Assembly (NCBI GenBank): GCA_025399215.1 | Contig: MU621130.1 | Span: 30,664 to 94,663 of the forward strand | DNA length: 64,000 nucleotides | Source of the DNA: Globomyces pollinis-pini | Lineage: Eukaryota > Chytridiomycota > Chytridiomycetes > Rhizophydiales > Globomycetaceae | Direction: 5' to 3' | Shown: positions 18,088-46,552 of the stretch, piece after piece | Layout: every line of letters starts with the position of its first letter | How positions within the stretch are numbered: position 1 is the stretch's first letter | Program-made: the position numbers and the translations under genes | The notes under the pieces: model-generated | Database searches by the model: none | What the model saw: the letters and a program-made list of their open reading frames with translations, nothing else | Told to the model about the DNA's origin: nothing

Positions 18088-21000
18088 TCAAAATATATCT
18101 CTTTGCTTCTTTGAAAAGTTTTCCAGCCATTCTTGGTGTTCTGAGAGGGAAGCTTTAGACCTGCTCTGTCCAGATGACCATCCTTTTCGATCCCTCGTAT
18201 GGAAAGACACTGGGTCAGGGTCAAAATGCCTTTCATATGACCTAGATGGTCTTATGTAGTCAACCGACTTATAATCATACCTAACTGTCAGTAAATTCAA
18301 ATTACTTGGATTTGGGGGATGTCAATACTTTACGATCTTCTGTCAAAACCTTCATCAGCTGGTCCAAATCTCGGTTTATATCATCAAGTTTGCTAACAGG
18401 TTTCTCATATTCACTTGAATGTCGTTTTTTAGGTTCTCTGGATGCTTTCTCGCTTCTCCTACTCTCATGGGTAGGCGATCGGGATCGCGATTGTACATCT
18501 TTCTTTCTGTAAATTTTCTTTTTCGATTTGTAATCTTCAGTGGATGATTCTGATTCTGATTCTGCATCATAAAACTTTTTGGATTTCTGTGATTTTTGAA
18601 TCTGCATTTAAAAATAAATAGTTATACCTTATATCGTTCTTCATCTGACTGAATGGAGGTTGAGGTATAGTGGTCTAAGTGTTGACCAGATTGTATTGCT
18701 TGACGCTGAGCATTCAAGTAACTCTTTGTTTTGTTCATATTTTCTTCTTCTTTTTGCATTCGAAGTCGTATTTGAGCCATTGTTGAGTGTCCATTGATGT
18801 ATTCAGTTGGAGCCCTACCATTATTATGATAAAATTACTCAATGTTGGAATCATCTTGATCGCTTTGATGGTGAGATTTTCCTTTCGATTTATGGTACTT
18901 GCCTATGTGATTAGCAAAAATGCATTACTATGTTTACTAGAGCTATCGCTTAAATCAGCGGCAGACAAATCTTTCTGATTGAATTTTTTCCCTTTGGATA
19001 CGTGGTGGCTGTCTGAGGAATCGGACTGTTCCTGTCGACTAAATTTCTGTATAGTCTTTGATATTGACTCATGTTTCTGTCTGGATGGAGATTGAACAAT
19101 TATTGGTTGATCATATCGATCAGGAGATGGTGAACGATAAGATTTGGATCGATCATCATCCACAAGTTTGAGTTTAGTTTCCCAAGCATTTTTGGAATTT
19201 GCATATCGATTTGCCATCTCTATATCTAAATCTCTAAGTTTTTGACTTTGTTCTTTAATTTGAACACGATATCTATCCATCAATGCCTCCAACTGTTCTT
19301 TTAGTTGCTGCTCATTCTTTTTGTATTCCATTTCATGATGGGTCCTCAAATCCTTCAATTGCGTATCAAATGTTTTGTTCAATTGCTTGATTTCTTGATC
19401 AAAATGTCCTTGATTCTCAAATTCGTATTTTTTAAGTTTAAGTTGATCTTCATTAGATAACTGGGATTTCACCAAAGATTTCTTAGTTTCATATGTGTAC
19501 GATAAAGATTTCCACATACTGAGAATATTCTCTTCAAATTTCAATCTGTAATCTTCAAAACTATTGGATAATTCTCTGTAGTCTGTCGTTAATCGTTTTG
19601 GCATAATCACGACAGGACCAGATTCATATACATTTACTTTAAGACCATTATGAATCAAATCGGTTTCCTTTTTGATCAATGACATTGATTCATCTTCGAG
19701 ATTTTGCAGTTTTCTTTGGAATTTTTCTTGAATCTTCTGAGCATTAAGTTTATATTCATGCTCTTGCATTTCTTGAAAGAGTTCCAACTTTTTAGCATAT
19801 TGTGAAACCGAATCAGACCTATGATGTTCATACTTATGTGCTGACTCTATATCATTGTTTTTAATCTTTTCTGAACCCCTATGTTTATCTTCCTCCAATT
19901 GAGTTTTATGGGATCTTGGTGACGTTTGTGATTCTGAATACTCGTCTCGACTATAGGTCCTTCCATTTCCATTTGTTTGCGATAAATTTTGCTTTGGAGT
20001 CAAGATGTTGGATTTTGCTTCATTATATCTAGTTTCATTGATATGATTCTGAGGAGACAAAATCTTTTGTTCTTGATTATCGAAACGTTCATATTGGTCT
20101 TTAAGATCCTTACGATCCTTTTCGATATTTTTAGGGGCGTTATAAATACTACTACCACCCATCATACCATTCACTTGCTGATTGTTTGAAATAGGTTTTT
20201 TCTTTTTGCAAAAGTCAGAATCACTGTCAGAGTTATTATTACGATTCTCTTTTTGAGCTGGCTTAGAAGTTCCAATATTCATCTTTGTATTTTGCCCATC
20301 TTTAGGACTATTCGATAGATTTTTCTTCTTACCAAAATCAGAATCACCATCAGAATCATCTTTGCGATTGTCTTTGGTAACTGGTTTAGAATTACCAAAA
20401 GTAGATTTCCCAGCATTGATATTNNNNNNNNNNNNNNNNNNNNNNNNNNNNNNNNNNNNNNNNNNNNNNNNNNNNNNNNNNNNNNNNNNNNNNNNNNNNN
20501 NNNNNNNNNNNNNNNNNNNNNNNNNNNNNNNNNNNNNNNNNNNNNNNNNNNNNNNNNNNNNNNNNNNNNNNNNNNNNNNNNNNNNNNNNNNNNNNNNNNN
20601 NNNNNNNNNNNNNNNNNNNNNNNNNNNNNNNNNNNNNNNNNNNNNNNNNNNNNNNNNNNNNNNNNNNNNNNNNNNNNNNNNNNNNNNNNNNNNNNNNNNN
20701 NNNNNNNNNNNNNNNNNNNNNNNNNNNNACTCTTCTTCTTACCGAAATCAGAATCTCCATCAGAATCATCTTTTCTGTTATCTTTGGTAACTGGTTTAGA
20801 ATTACCAAAAGTAGACTTTCCAGCATTGATATTCGATTTATCATTACTCAACACTCTGTTGTCTGTATTCTTCTTTTTACCAAAATCAGAATCATCATCA
20901 GAATCATCTTTTCGGTTGTCTTTTTGCACTGGTTTTGAGTTACCGAAAGTAGATTTGGCGGTATTGATATTCGATTTATCATTACTCAAACCTCTGTTGT

Positions 21001-23556
21001 CTGATTTCTTCTTTTTACCAAAATCAGAATCGCCATCAGAATCATCTTTACGGTTGTCTTTTTGCACTGGTTTTGAATTACCGAAAGTGGATTTCCCAGC
21101 ATTGATAGTTGTGCTGATATTCGATTTATCATTATTCATCCCTCGGCTGTCTGTACTCTTCTTCTTACCAAAGTCTGAATCATCATCAGAATCATCTTTA
21201 CGGTTGTCTTTTTGAACTGGTTTAGGATTTCCAAAAGAAGTTCCTCGACTGTCTTGAAAAGTATTTTTACCACTTGAATTTAACTCAGGTTTGTTCGGTA
21301 AGGCAGGTTTGAAATTACTTTCTTTAGCATCGTCTTTTTTCGCTACACTTGCATCCTTTTGATGATCTTTGGTTGGTGGCCCTACCAACTGTCCTTTAAC
21401 CCCAGCTACTTGTGAGCTTGGAGGGGAATTGTTCATTAATTTAATAGATTTGGATTCTGGTGACTTTTTGGAATAATTAGAATCAAAGTCGCTATCATCA
21501 CTATCGAATCCTTTTGCCTTCTGCTTATTTGAATCCTGTTGTTTTGACACTGTAGAATTTTGATTTTTCAAATAGCTACTGGATTTCATGTTGTTTGAGT
21601 CGAATTTATCAGAAGCAGAAGTTTCCAACCTACTGTTACTGTTGCCTTTTTCTAATTTTGCTTCATTTTTCACAGCTTGTGTAATTGTTTTTGTTTCACT
21701 CATCTGGTTTGTATTTTTAGAACGTGATGGCGGTGAATCACTATCATCACTATCATAAAGCTTATTGCTTTTGTTTGTATTCTTTGCCAAAGTGTTTTGT
21801 GGTACGTCAGAATTTTTAGCGTTTATGTTGTTATTTGCATTGTTCCCATTCTTCACCCCTTTGGAATCAGATTTTTCACTATTGGATTGATTAAATTTAG
21901 AGAGGTTGTCATTTTTAATGCCATTAGAATTCTGCTCGTTTGGTTGACTCCTAGAAGACATCTTATTTGATTCTTTCTTGGAATGGGTCGAATCAAAGTC
22001 ACTGTCATCACTTTCAATCCGTTTACCGAGTTTGCTTGACGGAAGTTGATTGTTGTTTAAAGAATTCACTCCATCAGGTTTCTTTGGTCCGTTTTGACTT
22101 TTCATGTAATTATTGGTATTGGAATTGAAATCAGTTTTGTCATTATTTTGCGAAGTTAGTTTGGATTTGCTATCTGTTTTCTCCAGTGGATTTAATTTTG
22201 ATTTACTATCAGTCTTCTCAAGCTTCGACCCATTTAAAGCATATTGTAAGCTGAGAGGCTTGTTATTTAAAGCAGCATCTGTTGATTTCTTGGAATGGGT
22301 TGAGTCAAAATCACTGTCATCCATTTCAGCTTTCTTTCCCATCTTGAATTGTTGGGGAAGATTGTTCTGTTTATTGGTTATTGATTGAGGCTCTTCGTTG
22401 GTTTGATTCTTCAAATACGAATTGTTTTTTGAGTTGTCAGCACTGGATTTACCATACTCCCCAAAAGAGACTCTACTTTTACTATCAGACTTCTCCAGTT
22501 TGCTTTCATTATTGATTTGCCTTACTGACTGTGATTTACTGTTGCTATCTGAATCAAAGTCATTTCTCATTCCATTTGTCTGTCTTCCAGGTGTTGTTTT
22601 TCCAATATCGTTAGATTTCTGTAATGAATTCTTATTATCAACAAACGAGCTGACTTTATCTTGGTTGGGTTGCTTAGACGTATCTAAAATTTTATTGTCC
22701 CCTTTTGTATTCTTTTGGTCCACTGATTTCAAAGAGTTGAGTTTTGGTGGGTCAAGAGGTTTCGTTGTCTTTGATAAGTTCTTTCCAGTCCCATTTGTGA
22801 TATCCTCAATTGATCCAGAGGACAATTCGAATTCATCTTCGATTTCGATACCCAAATTATCATAATTTGGTCTTGCTTTTGAATTTTGAGTGGATATAGG
22901 CTTGTTTTTACTGCTTCCTGGAGACGATGAACTTGAAAGAGATGATTTGTCTGTGGAAGCTGTTTTTGAAGTTCTTGAGGGTTCAATGGGAAGGCGATTT
23001 GAATTTTGAGATACTTGGTTATTGGTCTTCATTGCTGTTTGTGCCTTCTTCTTTTCCTGCTCTCGCTTAAGATATTCTTCAGAGGATCCGCCTTTAGCTT
23101 TTACTTCTTTATAAAGATTTCGATAATATTCATCACAAGGCTATAAAAGTTGAGACGATCAAAAATCATACATGGTCCCACATGGATTCACCACTTTTGA
23201 AGTTGAAATAGTAAATGTTTCCCTCTGCTGTTTGGCTAAGATTGTTAGATATGACGATTGAATGGCATTTGTGGTGATTGATAGTCACTTTGAAGTAGTA
23301 TTAACTTACCAAGGTTTCCAATCAGCAGGAAGGGGAGCTTTTAATGATTCTCTAGCGATCCAAAAGAAATTCTTTTCCTTCTTCACATCCATACCCAAGA
23401 ACTGAGCATATTCAATAATTTCTGTCCAAAGTAAATTTAAACCATTGTTGTTTACCTTCTTCGGTTGGTTCATAATCCTGATCATATCTAAAAAAGAAAT
23501 TTAAAAATTGATCGATTTAGTTACTCTTCCTCCAGGATCTTGCTGTTGCCAGACAT
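18088..23556 (-). CDS. CEP164: CEP164 homologue, basal-body distal appendage protein (interrupted by gap)
   Basis: Spliced exons from 23556 give MSGNSKILEEEYDQDYEPTE, then EEIIEYAQFLGMDVKKEKNF, then a WW domain. The WW domain reads [30 protein letters not shown] and EYYRNLYKEVKAKGGSS. That is the exact layout of the CEP164 N-terminus, which recruits TTBK2 for ciliogenesis. A very long Ser/Asp/Lys-rich disordered region follows, with acidic DDSDFDS-type motifs and 46-residue repeats. A long coiled coil (about 19850-19150) and a Ser/Arg-rich tail complete it. Short introns at the 3' end (around 18282-18306 and 18609-18634) all restore frame. The 305-N gap breaks the frame artificially. The gene implies a centriole/basal body and a flagellated stage. 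Confidence 0.9.
20215..21250 (-). repeat. 138-nt (46-residue) in-frame tandem repeat within the CEP164 coding sequence
   Basis: Repeat landmarks (TCAGAATC on the plus strand, or its close variant) start at 20215, 20338, 20748, 20886, 21024 and 21174. The spacing is exactly 138 nt for the clean copies, 150 nt for one with a 12-nt insertion and 123 nt for the diverged last copy. Each unit encodes a KSTFGNSKPVQKDNRKDDSD core followed by GDSDFGKKK, NRGLSNDKSNIN and similar variants. The copies are nearly identical at nucleotide level, which suggests recent unequal exchange or gene conversion. The assembly gap lies inside the array. Confidence 0.92.
20424..20728. other. Assembly gap (305 N) inside the repeat array
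   Basis: This run of 305 unknown bases falls within the tandem repeat. The flanking landmarks at 20338 and 20748 are 410 nt apart, which is not a multiple of three. Three full 138-nt units would give 414 nt, so a true gap of about 309 nt would restore the frame. Confidence 0.97.
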
Positions 23557-28851: not shown

Positions 28852-30978
28852 TTACGGTAAAGGAATACCATTACGACATATAGGACACTAAGAAATGTTA
28901 TAATAATATAACAAACCTCAAATCGTACTTCCATCCATTGCTCTAAACAGCTACTATGGAATATATGCATACTTGAAATAAGATCAGCACTCACTTACCA
29001 TGGGGTTATCATATAATCTTCACTATTCATACTATTCAGATCCATACTCACAAAACATATTGCACAGTCACTATTCTGAATACCTTCCATTTGTGGGATA
29101 GAATGATAATCATACATCCTAGGCAGTAACTAAAATAGTTAATCATACAAAAACATACTTGGTGAGGTATATATGCCCTACTTAGTCAGTAATATAGAAG
29201 TAGTTACCTGGGACCATAGTTTTGTTGAATATAGAGTATTGTTAATTGTGCACTAGTAATCAGTAACAGCATAACAGGCCAAATAGGAGAGTAAGAGAAT
29301 GAAATGCGATGAACTGGACAACACCATATAGACAATGGTAATAATGCACGTGTGACTGTCTGAACAACAATAAAAGACCAAGTGAATGGTGTTTTAGTAT
29401 TTCGCAGAATATTTCGAACTATTTGAGGTATCCAAAAACAAGATAACACCAAAATACCCAAGTTGATGAAAAAGGTATACTTATAAATCATCATCAAGGT
29501 CACATTAGCACCACCTACATATATCATATCTGTTGTTAACATGTAAATATTACATATTTTGGCTTGTAGGAGAGGAGAGTCTAAATCAGGGTCATTTCGA
29601 TGTTGAGATTTAATGATGGAGAAAATAAAGCGGATTTCAAATAAAGCAAACATCACCAGTTTGAAAAAAACAATAGTAGCAGCTTGTAGAAATAGGTTTG
29701 CTAATTGTCTAATTAAATCATTCACTTACAAAATGATAATCCAATGACAAGCAGCATAGTGCACACATAGAAATCAATAAACCCAATCTAAGTTTAGATA
29801 GTTGGAATATGTCATACCTATTCGATTAGAGCAAGATTTTATACCATTGAGATAGTAAGTGCTGATATCTTGGATCTGGTCTATCAAGATATTTAATTCC
29901 GACTCTAACTTACTGATTGTGACGTGCATTGCTGCATCTGTAAGGCTATCAGGACTAGTTCTAAACCACTTGCCAACTGAAAGAAAATTAAGGACCAATG
30001 ATAATTTTGATGGTTAATTTTCATCAAAATGACGTCCATATCTCCTTTAAATGTCAAGTTACAATTTTTAGAAAGAATTAATGCAGAGGCAGTTAAATGT
30101 GGTGGTCTTATTGTCGAAATCCCTTCATCATTGTCGAGCTCTGATAATTGTTAATTCAATATGATAAACCATTTTCAAAAACTTGGATTGCTTCCCTAGA
30201 TTCCAAAAGATGATCCAATTGTATAAATATATCAAATGAACAGTTTGTATGTACATTTGGTGCAACTAATCGTTACAAAGAAAGCCAATACATTTAATCG
30301 TTCCATTGACATCTGCATCCAACTGGGTATTTAAACGATGTAACTTATTCTCGTTGAATTCCAATAAAATGTTCTTACTTTGATTGAATATTACTGGATC
30401 AGGAAGTAAATCTAAGCCTGATAATCCACTCTCCCTAATGACATTGAGACACCACAAAATACCAATGTCGTGATGAAGTTTGCATAACTATTGAACCATT
30501 TGCGGGAAAATGAAATCCTGAGCAATAATAATTCCAAGTATTATTCGACAACTTTAACTGCATATCTCCTTCTGTGAAGAATATGTTTGGACTAGATTTA
30601 TTGGTATGTAGATAGAATTTCATTGTATCTGATTCAGATGTATCACTAATGGTTCCAGAATCATTTTGTATTGAGTTGTTTGAATTGTACGATGATATTG
30701 ATCCATATAAATATCCAGTTACATTCTGATAAAAGTGATAGAATGGAGACCTTGGTTTAAATAGTTGAAGATCATTTAATAACTTTGAAGAATTATAAGA
30801 GTATTGTAGCTATGTATTAATGACGTACAATTGGTACTTGATTGATATTGTTGATTGCATTTTGACGGAGAGATATAATTTCAGATAACTTTATGGATTG
30901 CTTATCTGTGATTTCAACGTAGTAGATGATGCTAAATAGAAACCAAACAATGATGGCAACAAAAGTCAGGTTTGACAT
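28852..30978 (-). CDS. DSC1: Transmembrane RING E3 ligase Dsc1/Tul1
   Basis: The start at 30978 gives a signal-anchor (MSNLTFVAIIVWFLFSIIYY). An ectodomain follows, with ALILSKNCNLTFKGDMD and SYNSSKLLNDLQ regions. Multiple membrane helices come next: VFFKLVMFALFEIRFIF, YKYTFFINLGILVLSCFW and WPVMLLLITSAQLTILYI. The C-terminus is QNYGPRAYIPHQ, LLPRMYDYHSIPQ, then a RING-H2: DCAICF, MHIFHSSCLEQWM and CPICRNGIPLP. The GPR-(F/Y)-IP...YDYH motif and C-terminal RING are characteristic of Dsc1/Tul1. This Golgi/endosome E3 ubiquitinates membrane proteins and, in some fungi, activates SREBP. Around eight introns of 25-40 nt are needed. The ectodomain exons are less certain than the C-terminal half. 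Confidence 0.85.
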
Positions 30979-31229: not shown

Positions 31230-31478
31230 TGGACCAAATCTAAATGGATTGGATTAATCGTATGCAATACAATTTGCTGACAGTTAAACTCAAGAGGGAA
31301 AATGAAACTAAACATTACAGAAGAACACTAGCATACATACGTTTCTTCAAAACTGTACAACGAATGAGATCCTAACTGAATAATGGATATATAGACACGA
31401 TGCCAACATGTGGTGCTGAAGTAAATATTTACAATTCTGTAGCATGCTTAAAAAGAAAGGAATCTATTTTGTCGTAAA

Positions 31479-31560
31479 ATGAATTTCTTCACTCTTGCTG
31501 TTTCGTTAATGGAATGTAGGTCCTAATGATCATCTTCTTGAAATTACAGTTACTGTTTTT
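31479..31560 (+). pseudogene. Decayed leader of a third secreted-protein paralogue
   Basis: The stretch starts ATG AAT TTC TTC ACT CTT GCT, matching the MNFFTLA leader of the two intact paralogues. It soon shifts frame and reaches TAA after about 15 codons. It then continues with GATCATCTTCTTGAAATTAC, which corresponds to the DHLLEIT segment of the copy at 31687. Similarity ends near 31550, and no mature domain follows. The promoter-like module of the intact copy begins directly after it. This is best read as a partial tandem duplicate that has degenerated. Confidence 0.82.
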
Positions 31561-31686
31561 GTATTTATATTGATCCACAATACATAGTGGATTTACATCC
31601 ATCTTGGTTTGTTTACATCCAATCCACTCTCGACATTTAAATAGATAGAAAATATCGTAAGAAATCACTCAAATAACTTATTGAAA
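31561..31686 (+). promoter_or_regulatory. Upstream module of secreted paralogue A
   Basis: The region holds TTGATCCAC, two copies of TTTACATCCA (near 31590 and 31612) and a terminal block GAAATCACTCAAATAA immediately before ATG 31687. The same elements in the same order precede paralogue B at 32790. A shared regulatory module is inferred from this repetition. Confidence 0.6.
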
Positions 31687-32349
31687 ATGAACTTCTTTAC
31701 TCTTGCCGCTTCTTTGATTGGATTGGTTGCTGCCGATCATCTTCTTGAAATCACACTTACTGTCGATAACGCGTACTTCGTTGAAGTTACAGGCCAAGCG
31801 ACACAATTTGGACCAGGAATTCCTGTTGGTACACCCAATGCACAAACTGGTGAGTGGGGAACAGTGCAAACCAAAACATTCACTCTTCTTGGTGATGGTC
31901 CATGGGTAGTGGGAGTTGTTGGGGATGACTGGGGGGTAACTTCTGCTTTCATGTATGGCTAAATTATTACTAATTCTATCAGGGGGGTTGTTAAACTTAA
32001 CGGCGGGCTATTAGCTGTTACTGGTGATGGTTCTTGGGATGTCAAGGAAGGCTCCTCAGTTGCAAACGAATTGGAAGTTCCAGCAGGATGGTTAGACCCT
32101 GATTACGATGCTAATGCGAATGGATTTGTCACCGCAGGATACGACTCTGTCTGTCTCAATCAAGGTGCTTACACTAGTGTCAAAGCGCAAATTGGCAACA
32201 ATGTAAAGCCAATCTGGAGAAAAGGTGGTGTTAACACCTGTGCCAGTTACCAGCCAAATGCACTCCAAAACTATCATTACTACAATTACTTCCGATTGGT
32301 CATTCCTGCTGTCAACGGACAATGTAACGTAGACGTTGTTGATATCTGA
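31687..32349 (+). CDS. Secreted beta-sandwich-like protein, paralogue A
   Basis: ATG 31687 encodes a signal peptide (MNFFTLAASLIGLVAADH). The mature protein has about 190 residues in two exons. The intron, about 28 nt (near 31956-31983), splits an ATG codon in SAFMGVVKLNGG. Seen in the mature part: LTVDNAYFVEVTGQ, GDGPWVVGVVGDDWGVTSAF, GDGSWDVKEGSS, PAGWLDPDYDANANGFVTAG and VKPIWRKGG. The pattern of an early VDN-aromatic strand, a middle GVVxDD segment, PxGW-xxxYDA and xIW resembles galactose-binding-like beta-sandwich modules. That fold is inferred and I do not recognise a named family. Identity with paralogue B is high in the leader and moderate in the body. Confidence 0.85.
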
Positions 32350-32659
32350 TTTCAATAAATCTGGTTCAATTTACATTCTTTATTAGATCTAAATACAGTA
32401 TTTCATTTAGAGATTTATTCTTTAGTTGTATCTTAACAGTAATAATCAATCAATACTTTAACCAAATCCCCGTAATTTACACGGAAACTCGTCTATCTTA
32501 TTGTATGGATGCCATTCAACAAATGTAATGTGTAAAGTTACATCACCGTATCAATCACATTCCACGAAAAATAGATGTATTCCAATGGTCAATGAATTTT
32601 AATCCATTTCCCCTGTATAGCAAGTGAATTTCACTCCACGATAAGTGGTGAAAAAACTT
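32350..32659. other. Intergenic region between the secreted paralogues
   Basis: No coding sequence is seen. The stretch contains scattered TCCAC and ATCCA motifs, such as TTCCACGAAA, AATCCATTT and ACTCCACGATAA, like those in the adjacent upstream modules. Confidence 0.5.
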
Positions 32660-32789
32660 AAATATGGATTTTGATCCACGATAAATAGTATATTACATCC
32701 ATGCGTACTTCTTGGCGTATTTACATCCATCCTTGATGGTTAAAAAGAGAGAGAATGAAGTATGAAATCACTCAAATAATTTATTCCAT
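32660..32789 (+). promoter_or_regulatory. Upstream module of secreted paralogue B
   Basis: The module has TTGATCCACGATAAATAG, two ACATCCAT boxes (TTACATCCAT and TTTACATCCA) and the block GAAATCACTCAAATAATTTA just before ATG 32790. It mirrors the module at 31561-31686 in content, order and distance to the start codon. Confidence 0.6.
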
Positions 32790-33438
32790 ATGAACTTCTT
32801 TACTCTTGCTGCTTCTTTGATTGGATTGGTTGCTGCCGATCACACTATTGAACTAACCACTTCTGTTGACAACGCGTTCTACACTGATATCACTGGGGGA
32901 AATATCCAATACGGTCCAGGAAATCAAGTTGGAACATTCGGACCTACCGGGGACTGGACCCAAGTGCAAACTAAAACATACCAAGTTACTGGTGATGGTC
33001 CATGGGTTTTAGGAGTTGTTGCTGATGATTATGGTGTTACTGCTGGTTTCATGTAAATCTATTGAAGGTTGATTTTTTAGGGGTGTTGTCAGACTTGATG
33101 GTGAGGTGATCGCTGTTACAGGAGATGCTGAACAGTCTTGGCAAGTCAAGGAAGGTTCTTCAAGCCCAAATACTTTGCAAGTCCCACCAGGCTGGTTGGC
33201 AGTTAATTACGACGCTGCTGGCAATGGTTTTGTTCCTGCTGGGTTTAATAGTGCATGTCTTAACCAAGGTGCATATGTCAATGTGAAAGCTCAAATTGGA
33301 CAAGGAGTTAAACCAATCTGGCAGAAAGGTGGTGTAGCTGATTGTACCAGTTATCCAGATGGTTTGCATTACTACAATTACTTCCGTTTGGTTATTTCAC
33401 TTCCTCCTGCCAAATGTGAAGCTCCAGAAGATATCTAA
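32790..33438 (+). CDS. Secreted beta-sandwich-like protein, paralogue B
   Basis: The leader (MNFFTLAASLIGLVAADH) is identical at protein level to paralogue A. The mature part has about 190 residues: TSVDNAFYTDITGGNIQYGP, GDGPWVLGVVADDYGVTAGF, GDAEQSWQVKEGSSS, PPGWLAVNYDAAGNGFVPAG and GVKPIWQKGG. A single intron near 33051-33079 sits at the same codon and phase as in paralogue A, which confirms duplication. Cysteines in the C-terminal part (SACLNQG, ADCTSY and PAKCEAP) are conserved or shifted only slightly. The protein is presumably exported to the wall or outside the cell. Function is unknown; carbohydrate binding is one possibility. Confidence 0.87.
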
Positions 33439-36336: not shown

Positions 36337-38211
36337 ATGAATTTCATTACAATGCTTGCATCTTTAATTGGTTCACTCGTACTTTCGCAAGTTCAAGGAA
36401 TCCCTGCCAAATGTCATGTCGAAACTAATCTGCCAATCGTGATATCAACCACTTCGTCACATATTGACATTGTTCCAACTTTGGGAGCATGTCCTAGAAC
36501 TCCAGGATCGTACCCACCGGTGTATCCTGACCTTCCGGTATATACTCCAAAGCCAGTCTACACTTACGGAAGTGGTCGATTGACAACCTCCAAGTTGGAA
36601 TCCACAGTAACAACCACACCAACATCAACAGGTACGACAACAGAGTTGTATTCAAGCTCGACCAGTGTACCAACCGGTCCCACTGCTACCAGCAGCTCCA
36701 TTGCTTCCACCACAGTATCACCAACTGCATCACCAATCCCTGTTGAGGCAATTGTCGATTTAGGCTATCAAAAATTCCGTGGTTTAGTAGAAGAAAAGAC
36801 AACCTCTTTTCTAAACATCCCATATGCTGCACCACCAATTGGTCCCCTACGATTCAAACCGCCTACTGCCCCTTTAGTAAATGCTACTACCGGAGATGCG
36901 ACAACGTTTGGTAATGGATGCTATCAACTTGTCAATGGAAATGGTTTGCAAAGTGGAAGAGGGTTAACATTATCTGAAGATTGCCTAAATTTGAATGTTT
37001 ATGCACCTCGGAATGCTAAAAATCTTCCAGTAATTGTCTATGTATTTGGTGGTAGTTTCACTTCAGGATATGCATCTAATCCACTTTATGATGGTCGATC
37101 CATTATCAAACAAGCTCCTGATGTTGTTATTGTGACCATCAACTACCGTTTAGGTGCTTTAGGATTTATGGCGGGTGTTGAATTGGCTAAAGAAGGATCA
37201 TTGAATGTTGGATTATTAGATCAAGCAAGTGCATTTCAATGGGTTCGTGAACACATCTCTAAATTTGGTGGTAATCCCAATCTAGTGACCGCCATGGGTC
37301 AATCTGCGGGAGCAATCGCAGTCGGTGACCATATGATTGCAAATGGCGGATCTCAGAAATTGTTTGATAGAGCTATTTTACTATCTGGTGCTCCTGGTCT
37401 TGTCATGCAAACTCCATTTTCCAGTGAACGTATGTTTCAAGGCATTGCAAAGAACGTTGGTTGTTCAGGACCAAGTCATTTAGAGTGCTTAAGAAATGTA
37501 GAACCAATGGAACTTGTTAAAAAATCTTTAGGTGCCAATTTCTTCCCTGTTGTTGATGGGAAATACATTCAATCACAAGCACTGGATTTGTACTCGAAAG
37601 GAATTTTTAGCAAGATCCCAGTATTGATGAATAGCAATTCCGATGAAGGAACAGTGTTTACTTTTAATTCTGTGAAAACTGAACAAGATGCGTTCAATTT
37701 CATCCTAGGTTATGCACCATTCTTGAACAAAACTGAAATAGCGAAATTCTATCCATTTGATAAATATCCAAAGGGACCTTGGGATGCTGCTGGATCCATT
37801 TTCGCCGATGCGTTGTTTAACTGTCCACAAACATCAATGGCACAAGTGTATAGTATGGCTAAAGTACCAGTTTACAAGTCTCTTTTCAACCACATTCCAT
37901 TAATTTCACGATTTAACGACACTGCAGTGTTGGGTGCATATCATGGTGCTGAACTGCCTTTTATTTGGCAAGCTACTCCTGTCATTGCAGAATCTGAAAT
38001 GGGTTTATCAAAACGGATGTTGAATGATGTTTTGGAGTTTGTAAAAGGAAATTCACCTGTTGAATGGCCAATTTATTCTTCAAATCCATCAGGTTCCGTG
38101 ATTAACTGGGAGTCTAAAATAACTGCTTTGGATAATTCAAGAAAGATTCAATGTGAATTTATCATTGGGAGTATCTTGAAGTATTTCAGAGAACAATCCG
38201 GCAAAAATTAG
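36337..38211 (+). CDS. Secreted type-B carboxylesterase/lipase with Ser/Thr-rich linker
   Basis: This is an intronless frame. The start at 36337 is preferred because it gives a signal peptide (MNFITMLASLIGSLVLSQVQ); an in-frame codon 54 nt upstream would bury it. A Pro/Thr/Ser-rich, probably O-glycosylated linker (residues about 35-140) precedes the alpha/beta-hydrolase domain. Carboxylesterase signatures are GLVEEKTTSFLNIPYAAPPI, SEDCLNLNVYAPRNAKNLPV, YVFGGSFTSGYASNP and the nucleophile elbow GQSAGAIAVG (Ser). NSDEGTVFTF supplies the acid and AYHGAELPFIW the His. GQSAG replaces the more common GESAG. The leader resembles that of the secreted paralogues at 31.7 and 32.8 kb. The product is an extracellular or wall esterase of unknown substrate. 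Confidence 0.92.
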   Translation: MNFITMLASLIGSLVLSQVQGIPAKCHVETNLPIVISTTSSHIDIVPTLGACPRTPGSYPPVYPDLPVYTPKPVYTYGSGRLTTSKLESTVTTTPTSTGTTTELYSSSTSVPTGPTATSSSIASTTVSPTASPIPVEAIVDLGYQKFRGLVEEKTTSFLNIPYAAPPIGPLRFKPPTAPLVNATTGDATTFGNGCYQLVNGNGLQSGRGLTLSEDCLNLNVYAPRNAKNLPVIVYVFGGSFTSGYASNPLYDGRSIIKQAPDVVIVTINYRLGALGFMAGVELAKEGSLNVGLLDQASAFQWVREHISKFGGNPNLVTAMGQSAGAIAVGDHMIANGGSQKLFDRAILLSGAPGLVMQTPFSSERMFQGIAKNVGCSGPSHLECLRNVEPMELVKKSLGANFFPVVDGKYIQSQALDLYSKGIFSKIPVLMNSNSDEGTVFTFNSVKTEQDAFNFILGYAPFLNKTEIAKFYPFDKYPKGPWDAAGSIFADALFNCPQTSMAQVYSMAKVPVYKSLFNHIPLISRFNDTAVLGAYHGAELPFIWQATPVIAESEMGLSKRMLNDVLEFVKGNSPVEWPIYSSNPSGSVINWESKITALDNSRKIQCEFIIGSILKYFREQSGKN

Positions 38212-43042: not shown

Positions 43043-43504
43043 TCCTTGTTTTTGTTGGAAAATTTAGATGACGCAAACTTCTTGTTGTAGAAAGTTGCCT
43101 ATCAGATTAAACCCACTTTCAAAACTCGATTTCAAACATTGTATTATTTCTCACATTAAACGAAAGCGATAATAATTTCGATTATCAGGTAGAATAGAAT
43201 GAAGCTAATTAAAATAATGTGTTGGTGTTAGGATATCATCCAAAATTTTAATTCAATATATTATTGGTAATCTGCTACTAATTGACTCTATTACCAAATT
43301 GACTTTTTTAACTTTCTTATCAAGAAGCGTGTTTTACGTCACAACTTACAACAATGCGACAAGCCATCCAATCAACATCTTAGTGTGGATTCTTTATTTA
43401 CATTTATTTCTTCACTGCCCTTCATTCCAAATTCGGACTGTGAAACCAAGAATCCTTATTTTTGCACCAACTTTTGTGAAACCACATAAAAAAACTGAAT
43501 CCAA
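43043..43504. other. Divergent intergenic region between CFAP69 and hydrolase 1
   Basis: No gene is seen over 460 bp. A plus-strand open frame at 43299-43526 is hydrophobic but runs into the hydrolase start in another frame. It is not supported as coding. Confidence 0.45.
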
Positions 43505-44896
43505 ATGTTTGTCCATTCAATTATGAAGGAATCTTTGCAAAAACGATTTAGCAGCTCTGAATTTTATTTTTATCGATATGGACTGGAAGCAAGTTTGATT
43601 ATTATGGCAATCTATATACTTGGATGTGGATTATCTTACTCTTTTGTGCCGATAGAGTACTTTCATATTGCCATTGGATGTACATTCATATGGGTTATCA
43701 TGGAGCTGTGCTTCTTTGCTTGGCTGACGTTCTATTTATATTATCAAGGAATTCCTGTTGATCATATCCCATTACCAACCCCAAAAGAGCATCAGCTTTT
43801 CTTATCCGAGTTACAAAGTCCAAATTCTATAGAGAATTTAGAAGAGTATCTTTCAGGTTGGTTTTATGATAATGATATCAAACAAGTCTCTAAAAAGGAT
43901 GTGTTGGATTGGATGTCTGTCATGTTGTATCATTGCCAATTCCATACGCTAGAGCAAAAATCACAAATGGTACAGATATTGAACTTTGTAAATCAACTTG
44001 AAATACGATTGCAGCACAAATTTGACGTGTCTACCATTACGCAAAACAACAAAATGTTGATGACTGTAGACCGGATCGAAATTTCATTCCGACCATTACT
44101 TTTTTATTTATCCATGCAGATAGTAGCAAGATGCAGTGGATTTCTGTACACCGCCTATGGATTTGAACGAAAAGTGGACGATAATATGATATCCTACTAT
44201 CGAAAAGGAGATACCACCAAACCTTCTATCGTGTTCTTTCATGGAATAGGCATAGGCTTGTCTGCTTATACTCGTTTCATAATAGCATTAATCAGTCAGT
44301 TTCCCGATAGGACAATCATCCTTATGGAAATGCCCTCCATTGCCATGCGACTTGATTTATCCCACTGCGTCCCAGAAGAATTCGCCAATTCGGTCGCGCG
44401 AAGGCTCGCTGAAGTGAATTCAACCGAGAACATATTTATTGGGCATAGTTTAGGAACAGTATTACTCCGTTGGATTGACTACTTTCATCCTGAAATAGTC
44501 ACATACAGAATATTTATCGAACCTATCTGTTTTTCTTTATGGACAGCGGATATTGCATATAACTTTGCATATAGAGGACAAGATCGTAACCATATACGAA
44601 CGGCAATCAAGTCCTTTGCTGCCATGGAGGTTGGAATAGCATTATACCTTCGCAGATGGTTTGTTTGGTATCAAAATACGTACTTCACCGATACCTTACC
44701 TGAAAACTGCAAGATATATCTGTCTGAATATGATGGGATAGTCAACTCTGAATATGTCGGCACCTACTTGGCAAAGAACGCACACCACAGTCGGAAAGTT
44801 GAAATAATAGGGTCAGTAAACCATGGAGATTTGCTAATGTTTGGTGACCAGAGTAGAATCTTGGAGGATATTCGTCGATTGGACAAATATAATTAA
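43505..44896 (+). CDS. Membrane-anchored alpha/beta hydrolase, paralogue 1
   Basis: This is an intronless frame of 463 residues. The start could also be ATG 43523 (MKESLQKRFSSS). Two hydrophobic helices come first: EASLIIMAIYILGCGLSYSF and IAIGCTFIWVIMELCFFAWL. A helical linker with SPNSIENLEEYLSGWFYDND follows. The hydrolase domain has the oxyanion region FFHGIGIGLSAYTRF, the nucleophile elbow IGHSLGT (Ser), a candidate acid in LSEYDGIVN and the His in SVNHGDLLM. Substrate is unknown; such enzymes act on lipids or esters at membranes. Hydrolase 2 downstream is a tandem paralogue, similar over nearly its whole length. Confidence 0.83.
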   Translation: MFVHSIMKESLQKRFSSSEFYFYRYGLEASLIIMAIYILGCGLSYSFVPIEYFHIAIGCTFIWVIMELCFFAWLTFYLYYQGIPVDHIPLPTPKEHQLFLSELQSPNSIENLEEYLSGWFYDNDIKQVSKKDVLDWMSVMLYHCQFHTLEQKSQMVQILNFVNQLEIRLQHKFDVSTITQNNKMLMTVDRIEISFRPLLFYLSMQIVARCSGFLYTAYGFERKVDDNMISYYRKGDTTKPSIVFFHGIGIGLSAYTRFIIALISQFPDRTIILMEMPSIAMRLDLSHCVPEEFANSVARRLAEVNSTENIFIGHSLGTVLLRWIDYFHPEIVTYRIFIEPICFSLWTADIAYNFAYRGQDRNHIRTAIKSFAAMEVGIALYLRRWFVWYQNTYFTDTLPENCKIYLSEYDGIVNSEYVGTYLAKNAHHSRKVEIIGSVNHGDLLMFGDQSRILEDIRRLDKYN

Positions 44897-45136
44897 TCAC
44901 AACAATAATATTGTTTTACATTCAATGAATCGCGTGTATTTCATAAACTGAGCATCGCCAAAGGCAGCTTTGCCAAGTCGGCCAATAAAATATTAGAATT
45001 AATTTCTTTCAGTGTCTGATCAAGGGATCAAAAACTCCCAAATCGGCCGGCTTGATGTCGGCCGGCTTCTCTTTTTTCCAGGTTCGGGTCATTAAATAAT
45101 CCACGTCGTTTCAACCAATTTCACAAAATAAATTCA
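44897..45136 (+). promoter_or_regulatory. Upstream region of hydrolase 2 with TCGGCCGGCTT direct repeat
   Basis: TCGGCCGGCTT occurs at 45043-45053 and 45058-45068, 15 bp apart. A related GTCGGCC occurs at 44977-44983. These are GC-rich islands in AT-rich DNA, and the CGGCCG core is palindromic. They lie 70-95 bp upstream of ATG 45137. A transcription-factor site, for example for a zinc-cluster regulator, is inferred. Confidence 0.5.
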
Positions 45137-46552
45137 ATGGGAAGCGACGCTCTTCAAAAACCTCGGCATTCAAAAACTTTGGAGTTATTTAGGATTTCTA
45201 GAAAGAGCATTGGAACGTACTTGGTGTTCACCTTGAAAGCTATCTTTAGTTTGGCTTTATGTTATGTCATCTATTTTGTTCCTGTTCTGAAATTCTTACC
45301 TTCCGAATGGCAGGATATTGTCATTCCATGGACTTTGATTTGGGTAACCATCGAAGTCGGTTTCTTGCTTGCAGTACTGGTGCGGGTTTATTATTGCTCC
45401 TCCATTGACCATTTACCAACTTTAAATGCAAAGGAATTCAGACTCTTTCTTGCTGAAATTCAAAGTCCTCGTTCAATCGAGAATGCTGCAGAGTATCTCA
45501 AAGGTTGGTTCTATGGTTCTGATATTGGCAAAATTGGTAAGCAAGATATAATGCAATGGTTATCAGCATTACTTTACAATCAAATTCAAGAAAACATGAC
45601 GGTATCTCAAATCTCAAATGTTTTGGTGTTGATGAGGAGTCTAGAAAAACGACTTGGAATCAAATTTGATGATGTTCCCAATCCAAACACAAAGAAAATG
45701 ATGTTGACTCATGATCCAATTGAAATTTCATTTCGTCCATTGATATTCTATGCATCTATGCGATTTGTGGCAACTTCTATTCGATTGATTTATTGGAGAC
45801 ATGGATTTCAACGAAAATCAAAGGGAAGTATGGTTTCTTATTATCGTGCTGGAACTAGTTGTGAACCATCACTCGTTTTCTTTCATGGGATTGGAATTGG
45901 ACTTGGGTCATATACTAGATTCATTTTGGCATTGGTAAAGAAATATCCAACTAGAACGATTGTACTTTTTGAAATGCCATCGGTAGCCATGAGATTATCG
46001 TTAACTCATTGTCTTCCTGAAGAGTTTGCAAATTTATGTGCTGAACGATTACTTGAAGTGGGATCCACCGACAATATTGTTATTGGACACAGTTTAGGAA
46101 CGGCCCTGGTTCGATGGATGGATTATTTCCATCCAAATCTCGTTCAACATCGGATTTTTGTTGATCCAATTTGTTTTTCCCTTTGGACAAGTGATGTTGC
46201 ATACAATTTTGTTTATCGATGTCCTGAAAAAAGTCAAGCCATGTTTTTGATGAAATATTTTAGTGCCATGGAACCTGGAATTGCATTGTACTTGCGTCGA
46301 TATTTTGTTTGGCATCATAACACATATTTCACTGAACATTTACCAAAAAATTGTAAAATTTACTTGTCAGAACGTGATAGTATTGTCAATACCAATTATG
46401 TTTCCGGATATTTAGAGCGTCATCCGCATGATACCAGAGAAGTGGATATTTTGAAAGGATTGGCTCACGGTGATTTCTTACTTGGCGGCAACTACAATTG
46501 TATCTTTAGTGATATTTCAAGAATGGGTTGGGTACCCAGTGATACTGTCTAG
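45137..46552 (+). CDS. Membrane-anchored alpha/beta hydrolase, paralogue 2
   Basis: This is an intronless frame of 471 residues from ATG 45137 (MGSDALQKPRHSKTLELFRI). It shares with paralogue 1 the two N-terminal helices, SPRSIENAAEYLKGWFYGSD and IEISFRPLIFYASM. It also shares VFFHGIGIGLGSYTRFILAL, MPSVAMRLSLTHCLPEEFAN, IGHSLGTALVRWMDYFHP and GLAHGDFLL. The Ser of GHSLG and the His of AHGD form the expected catalytic pair. Tandem arrangement and lack of introns in both copies suggest duplication after intron loss or from an intronless ancestor. Its own GC-rich repeat lies upstream. Confidence 0.85.
   Translation: MGSDALQKPRHSKTLELFRISRKSIGTYLVFTLKAIFSLALCYVIYFVPVLKFLPSEWQDIVIPWTLIWVTIEVGFLLAVLVRVYYCSSIDHLPTLNAKEFRLFLAEIQSPRSIENAAEYLKGWFYGSDIGKIGKQDIMQWLSALLYNQIQENMTVSQISNVLVLMRSLEKRLGIKFDDVPNPNTKKMMLTHDPIEISFRPLIFYASMRFVATSIRLIYWRHGFQRKSKGSMVSYYRAGTSCEPSLVFFHGIGIGLGSYTRFILALVKKYPTRTIVLFEMPSVAMRLSLTHCLPEEFANLCAERLLEVGSTDNIVIGHSLGTALVRWMDYFHPNLVQHRIFVDPICFSLWTSDVAYNFVYRCPEKSQAMFLMKYFSAMEPGIALYLRRYFVWHHNTYFTEHLPKNCKIYLSERDSIVNTNYVSGYLERHPHDTREVDILKGLAHGDFLLGGNYNCIFSDISRMGWVPSDTV

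Follow-up and report, generated by a model that had tools for sequence, protein, structure and literature searches.

Globomyces pollinis-pini is a pollen-dwelling aquatic chytrid (Rhizophydiales, Chytridiomycota). A stretch of 64,000 nucleotides (nt) of its contig MU621130.1 (positions 30,664 to 94,663 of the forward strand, here called the window) carries a tandem pair of genes whose deposited products are both annotated as hypothetical. The locus raises the question of what these two genes encode and how the pair arose. We infer secretion, fold, calcium, sugar binding and target alike, and on this footing both genes probably encode secreted, single-domain, calcium-dependent glycan-binding proteins that are remote relatives of the POL-type lectins and of the module CBM67.

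The gene pair and its products

An earlier reading made from the letters of the window, here called the sequence-only reading, had described two secreted tandem paralogues with an intron at the same codon and phase, preceded by the decayed leader of a third copy. The gene models are as follows, residue numbers being throughout those of copy 1.

31687-32349, + strand: copy 1 gene, spliced product of 210 amino acids (aa)
31687..31952, + strand: copy 1 exon 1, encoding the leader (1-16) and the first half of the mature core (D27 N28, W57, D81)
31953..31982, + strand: copy 1 intron, 30 bp, phase 2
31983..32349, + strand: copy 1 exon 2, encoding the motifs T-G-D-G-S-W and P-A-G-W-L-D-P-D-Y-D, then IW...YFRLVI at the C-terminal end
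32790-33438, + strand: copy 2 gene, spliced product of 206 aa
32790..33052, + strand: copy 2 exon 1
33053..33080, + strand: copy 2 intron, 28 bp, phase 2, at the same codon as in copy 1
33081..33438, + strand: copy 2 exon 2

Both introns interrupt, in phase 2, the same Met codon after Phe (AT/G), in line with the shared codon and phase of that reading. The deposited Globomyces proteins BC833DRAFT_563490 (P0002) and BC833DRAFT_582737 (P0001) are identical to spliced copy 1 and spliced copy 2, respectively, and the two products share 65% identity in the alignment (63% by BLASTP). Residues 3-16 are hydrophobic (mean Kyte-Doolittle value 2.21) and a V-x-A site precedes D17; judged from sequence, these features make a secretion leader plausible. 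Cut before residue 17, the mature parts are 194 and 190 aa long, with masses of about 20.6 kDa (copy 1) and 20.1 kDa (copy 2), and each has an isoelectric point of 4.23, three cysteines and no N-x-S/T site. The AlphaFold models of both proteins are of low confidence. Elsewhere in the window, a carboxylesterase (PF00135) at 36337-38211 has a leader, MNFITMLASLIG, that resembles the leader of the pair; at the DNA level the two are of borderline similarity, equalled by 1 of 1000 mononucleotide shuffles.

Likeness to POL-type lectins and CBM67

A galactose-binding-like order of motifs was recognised in the mature part and a consensus was then written for a search of PDB sequences, in which it matched POL (6t0q, 4.4e-38) and the rhamnosidases 3w5m (6e-9) and 2okx (9.8e-7). 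This route carries a bias, the window proteins having been seen before the consensus was drawn up. The later tests relied on real POL relatives alone: 48 proteins, of which 39 with a length of 300-430 aa entered the profile and 9 shorter ones were left out. In a profile-profile comparison, the mature pair matched the 39-relative profile with a score of 40.4 (P 2.6e-5, probability 74.6). None of 600 column shuffles (maximum 31.4) or 300 block shuffles (maximum 29.0) reached this score, the reversed control gave 13.7 and the best of 48 other six-frame open reading frames of the window (at least 120 aa) gave 20.9; as positive controls, the CBM67 of 3w5m and the N-terminus of 2okx scored 136 and 78. 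The pair matched POL domain 2 with a probability of 90.8 and domain 1 with 37.0, and copy 1 alone matched POL with 83.1. With the Amanita relative P0042, BLASTP aligned both copies in the same register (E 2e-6 for copy 1, 1e-5 for copy 2; ~1e-4 and ~5e-4 after multiplication by 48, as P0042 was picked as the best of 48), and 16 of the 48 relatives had a z over 3 with copy 1 (60 shuffles each). Combined, these results give a significant sequence-profile relation to the POL-type/CBM67-like superfamily over the core, carried mainly by copy 1. It is likely, again mainly through copy 1, that the mature domain is related to the POL/CBM67 beta-sandwich; the galactose-binding-like beta-sandwich suggested by the sequence-only reading is thus probably right, by way of profile comparison and not of structure.

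With the POL-type mushroom lectins (the Pleurotus ostreatus lectin POL, PDB 6kbj, 6t0q and 6t1d, and its relatives) the pair has in common the order of the core motifs, namely D-N/D, the aromatic residue 57, T-D-x-x-W and P-x-G-W/F. It differs from them in having one domain where POL has two in tandem, a C-terminal WIW/FRK-like segment and longer inserts, and in lacking a match to PF08531. Since a single mature domain with IW...YFR at its C-terminal end is present, the pair was not filed as a POL lectin proper. CBM67 is a calcium-dependent sugar-binding module of an alpha-L-rhamnosidase; in comparison with that of 3w5m, no enzyme domain is attached here.

The putative site for calcium and sugar was examined in an alignment of 21 POL rows, built with the window proteins included. 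Asp27, Asn/Asp28, the aromatic residue 57, Trp107 and Trp/Phe125 are found in 21 of 21 rows, Thr102, Asp104 and Pro122 in 20 of 21; at all these positions the two copies conform. Asp27-Asn28, at the place of the adjacent calcium and sugar ligands (Asp-Asn/Asp) of the POL/CBM67 superfamily, is present in both copies. Through the POL alignment, Asp179, Asn180, Trp203, Asn228 and Pro233 of the 3w5m CBM67 fall at positions 27, 28, 57, 81 and 85; these five residues reportedly bind calcium and rhamnose (Fujimoto et al. 2013), and Pro233 is presumably a residue of the sugar/calcium site. CBM67 is calcium-dependent and has been seen with L-rhamnose bound (PMC4690510). The module of POL and Shictin is described as resembling CBM67 and depending on calcium, with two neighbouring Asp and a Pro or Val at its site (PMC11512411).

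Direct searches of Pfam (E up to 10), NCBIfam and PHROGs gave no family for either protein, in agreement with the sequence-only reading, which had recognised no named family. In a search of 5.8 billion proteins, 2 of 312 candidates were confirmed with copy 2 as the query and 2 of 2952 with the pair, in each case the two window proteins themselves. The search depends on shared exact words and reached 30% identity with the POL relatives; because relatives without such words escape it, the result is valid at that sensitivity alone. The pair had also been called lineage-specific, which at this sensitivity holds for the sequence but probably not for the fold. Among pattern-matching stretches, none of 160 in prokaryote contigs and none of 19 in viral contigs were confirmed, and copy 1 had no match in plasmids and phages (E up to 1). 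PDB sequences gave 6 weak and scattered matches to copy 2 (best E 0.0011, chain Scone-R), with no stretch passing by itself, and 3 weak matches to the pair (best E 0.49). The genome of the fungus itself (18.5 Mb in 459 contigs) yielded two places with a DNA query from the mature part and just the pair with a protein query, in a search whose strict first pass distant paralogues could escape; the consensus and pieces of POL, searched there without a positive control, found nothing. PF08531 (Bac_rhamnosid_N) was absent from both proteins and from the genome (E up to 10 in each case) and PF05592 from the genome (E up to 1); in control genomes, the same searches matched 3 of 14 and 2 of 14, respectively. 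In the literature, no paper joining CBM67 and chytrid lectins was found among those listed, and CBM67 with Chytridiomycota gave only work on woodchip bioreactors.

Relic, flanks and age of the pair

Three further elements lie on the 5' side of the two genes.

31476..31556, + strand: third-copy relic of 81 nt, with the leader and ~10 mature codons, frameshifted (from the shuffle test and the own-genome DNA search)
31567..31682, + strand: 5' flank block of copy 1, promoter-like by its position alone, directly behind the relic
32668..32785, + strand: 5' flank block of copy 2, promoter-like, resembling 31567-31682

The leader relic that had been placed at 31479 is real, and tandem paralogy with a decayed third copy is borne out by the gene models, the shuffle tests and the own-genome DNA search. 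Local alignment of the relic to the head of copy 1 scored 76, compared to 32 for the best of 1000 dinucleotide shuffles. A DNA query from the 5' end of copy 1 (31640-31763) found three places in the genome; besides its own position, these are copy 2 (3.4e-30) and the relic (1.5e-11). Translated from its own ATG, the relic gives MNFFTLAVSLMECRS followed by a stop, and the ~10 mature codons lie in another frame. The flank blocks 31567-31682 and 32668-32785 resemble each other with a score of 81 (maximum of 1000 shuffles 35). Since the relic runs straight into the first of these blocks, no body of the third copy is left, not even in mutated form. Before the relic, 31250-31478 showed no clear similarity to the region between the genes (38 of 1000 shuffles equal or better). 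Behind the leader, the relic and copy 1 agree at 27 of 29 nt and the relic and copy 2 at 19 of 29, the number at which copy 1 and copy 2 also agree. The leader of the relic agrees with that of copy 1 at 24 of 29 nt and with that of copy 2 at 25 of 29. We read the relic as a later duplicate of the copy 1 type whose body was deleted. The birth-and-death evolution proposed by the sequence-only reading fits this one loss and the copy-1-like duplicate, but three places provide little ground for naming an evolutionary regime.

The motif TACATCCA occurs twice before each intact gene (31594, 31614, 32694 and 32722), these being 4 of the 8 sites that the + strand of the window holds. A 22-nt pattern taken from the two 5' flanks was found genome-wide at 19 places with up to 3 mismatches, compared to 5 for the reversed control. 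As the places with 0 or 1 mismatch are its two source places alone, no regulon is claimed.

Divergence between the copies is uneven along the genes. By the Nei-Gojobori method, synonymous divergence (dS) is 0.93 and nonsynonymous divergence (dN) 0.27 over all 204 codon pairs; for the 186 mature codons from residue 19 on, dS is ~1.07 and dN 0.31 (dN/dS ~0.28), and for leader codons 1-18 dS is 0.18 and dN 0. Nucleotide identity is 52/54 in the leader, 141/212 in the mature part of exon 1, 14/30 in the intron and 234/373 in exon 2, with 36/47 in the proximal and 53/87 in the distal flank. Where the amino acids are identical, the codons are too in 16 of 18 cases for the leader and in 69 of 114 for the mature part (Fisher p 0.019), and synonymous differences as few as in the leader are seen in 4 of 187 windows of 18 codons. 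Of 2000 column permutations, none equalled the best block of 100 columns and 4 equalled the longest run of identity. The likeness of leader and proximal flank results from either gene conversion or constraint; with two copies, the one cannot be told from the other. Contrary to the sequence-only reading, the pair is not young, because mature dS is ~1.07; the leader alone is nearly identical. Purifying selection acts on the intact pair, whose duplication is either old or fast-ageing.

Other features of the window were noted. Upstream of the cluster, a DUF2921 transmembrane domain (PF11145) is encoded at 29204-29725 on the - strand. Two neighbouring alpha/beta-hydrolase-like tandem paralogues lie at 43499-46552 (229 of 468 columns identical, 49%), the second with weak matches to Abhydrolase families below the cut-offs. 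At 18903-23140, long reading frames with repeated DSDSDFGKKK-like units flank a stretch of N, possibly an assembly gap in repeats; the window contains 305 N.

Segment order, rival explanations and meaning

In the POL relatives, WIW and FRK segments open each domain, whereas in the pair the core comes first and IW...YFRLVI last. A crude motif scan located an FRK-like segment before the core in 40 of the 48 relatives; the remaining 8 had no recognised segment or, in one fragment (P0043), the core at the start. Several tests argue for a circular permutation. When placed before the core, the tail raised the score with POL domain 1 to 45.5 from 30.0 for the core by itself (reached by 0 of 400 tail shuffles) and with domain 2 to 49.9 from 44.1 (3 of 400), and the tail alone matched the opening segment of domain 1 (0 of 400 shuffles). 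Other tests argue against it. The tail alone had no clear match to the opening of domain 2 (27 of 400), a longer tail alone gave P 0.011 with full POL, and with the POL segment 'core 1 to strand 2', where a counterpart of the tail is expected, the pair scored 29.6, no gain over its 30.2 with domain 1, the local alignment ending before the tail. In an alternative reading suggested by the MAFFT placement, PIW would match the closing P-W-G of the same domain and YFRLVI alone would be permuted. The layout proposed here is also that of P0050, a metagenomic protein of 154 aa that by eye has its core first and WIW...YCR towards the C-terminus (its core escaped the motif scan). P0050 scored 124 with the segment 'core 1 to strand 2' and 109 with either canonical domain, in an alignment that ends at WIW; copy 1 matched it with a score of 54 (0 of 500 shuffles as good; BLASTP E 0.010), copy 2 failed with 34 (135 of 500 locally, 23 of 500 globally), the pair reached a probability of 1.7 by hhalign, and no relatives of P0050 were confirmed in viral contigs. 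With these mixed results, circular permutation appears a fair possibility. A wider account can be put forward only tentatively, and we consider it doubtful as a whole: the pair would be permuted single-domain CBM67/POL-type calcium lectins of P0050-like layout in an early-diverging fungus, tandem POL and permuted single lectins would be two cuts of one ancestral repeat, and the cluster would have undergone tandem turnover, its leader and 5' flank being kept alike by gene conversion.

A secreted calcium lectin is consistent with the leader, the retained Asp-Asn pair and the pine-pollen isolate. Each mature domain would fold as a beta-sandwich (jelly roll), a calcium ion would be held by Asp27-Asn28 and perhaps also by Asp81, and through this ion a sugar would be bound outside the cell, for example on pollen or on the wall of the fungus itself. 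Pine pollen was the source of a strain of the species (PMC9381765). In Rhizophydium megarrhizum, related according to its authors, a presumed zoospore fraction is described as having higher expression of carbohydrate-binding proteins of other families (PMC13391722).

Some observations favour explanations other than the lectin interpretation. At or close to the site, the pair departs from POL at three conserved positions, with Thr35, Asp81 and Thr85 where 20 of 21 POL rows have Asn, Asn and Pro; Thr85 occupies the place of the site proline in both copies, no enzyme domain is attached, and PF08531 and PF05592 are absent in own-genome searches that matched control genomes. The same fold could thus serve in protein-protein contact or in a structural protein of wall or matrix, with a dead sugar site. 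We consider this unlikely, as Asp27-Asn28 and the aromatic residue 57 are kept in both copies despite about one third of the positions differing, and Asp in place of Asn could still hold calcium. The proline is perhaps dispensable, because Shictin, described as a sugar binder, has Val there (PMC11512411). As for the relation itself, copy 2 alone matched POL with a probability of 1.7, no better than the best control, direct hidden Markov model scores are low (4.3 and 1.8 bits), and the pair has no match to the single CBM67 sequence of 3w5m (16.6) or to 2okx (18.4). Together with the poor structural models and the lack of a Pfam match, this would suit an unrelated orphan fold whose likeness to POL/CBM67 arose by chance or motif convergence, helped by a choice of family made after the motif had been seen. 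Such a coincidence is improbable given a profile score unmatched by the controls (0/600, 0/300 and 0/48), the single register in which both copies match P0042 and the shared succession of the aligned motifs (VDN first, TGD-SW next, P-GW last). Finally, a nearly identical leader before a divergent mature part, in a tandem layout with a relic, recalls a young, fast-evolving, effector-like cluster under diversifying selection; a mature dN/dS of ~0.28 with dS ~1.07, and the origin of a strain of the species from pine pollen (PMC9381765), with no host met in the analysis, make this very improbable.

Read as calcium-dependent lectins, an orphan and 'hypothetical' pair of chytrid proteins becomes a pair of testable lectin candidates. 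The relation suggests that the calcium-lectin modules of mushrooms and bacterial rhamnosidases extend into chytrids, below the detection limit of the family libraries, and the pair may be a case in which a tandem-repeat lectin and a permuted single domain are related by a shifted cut point.
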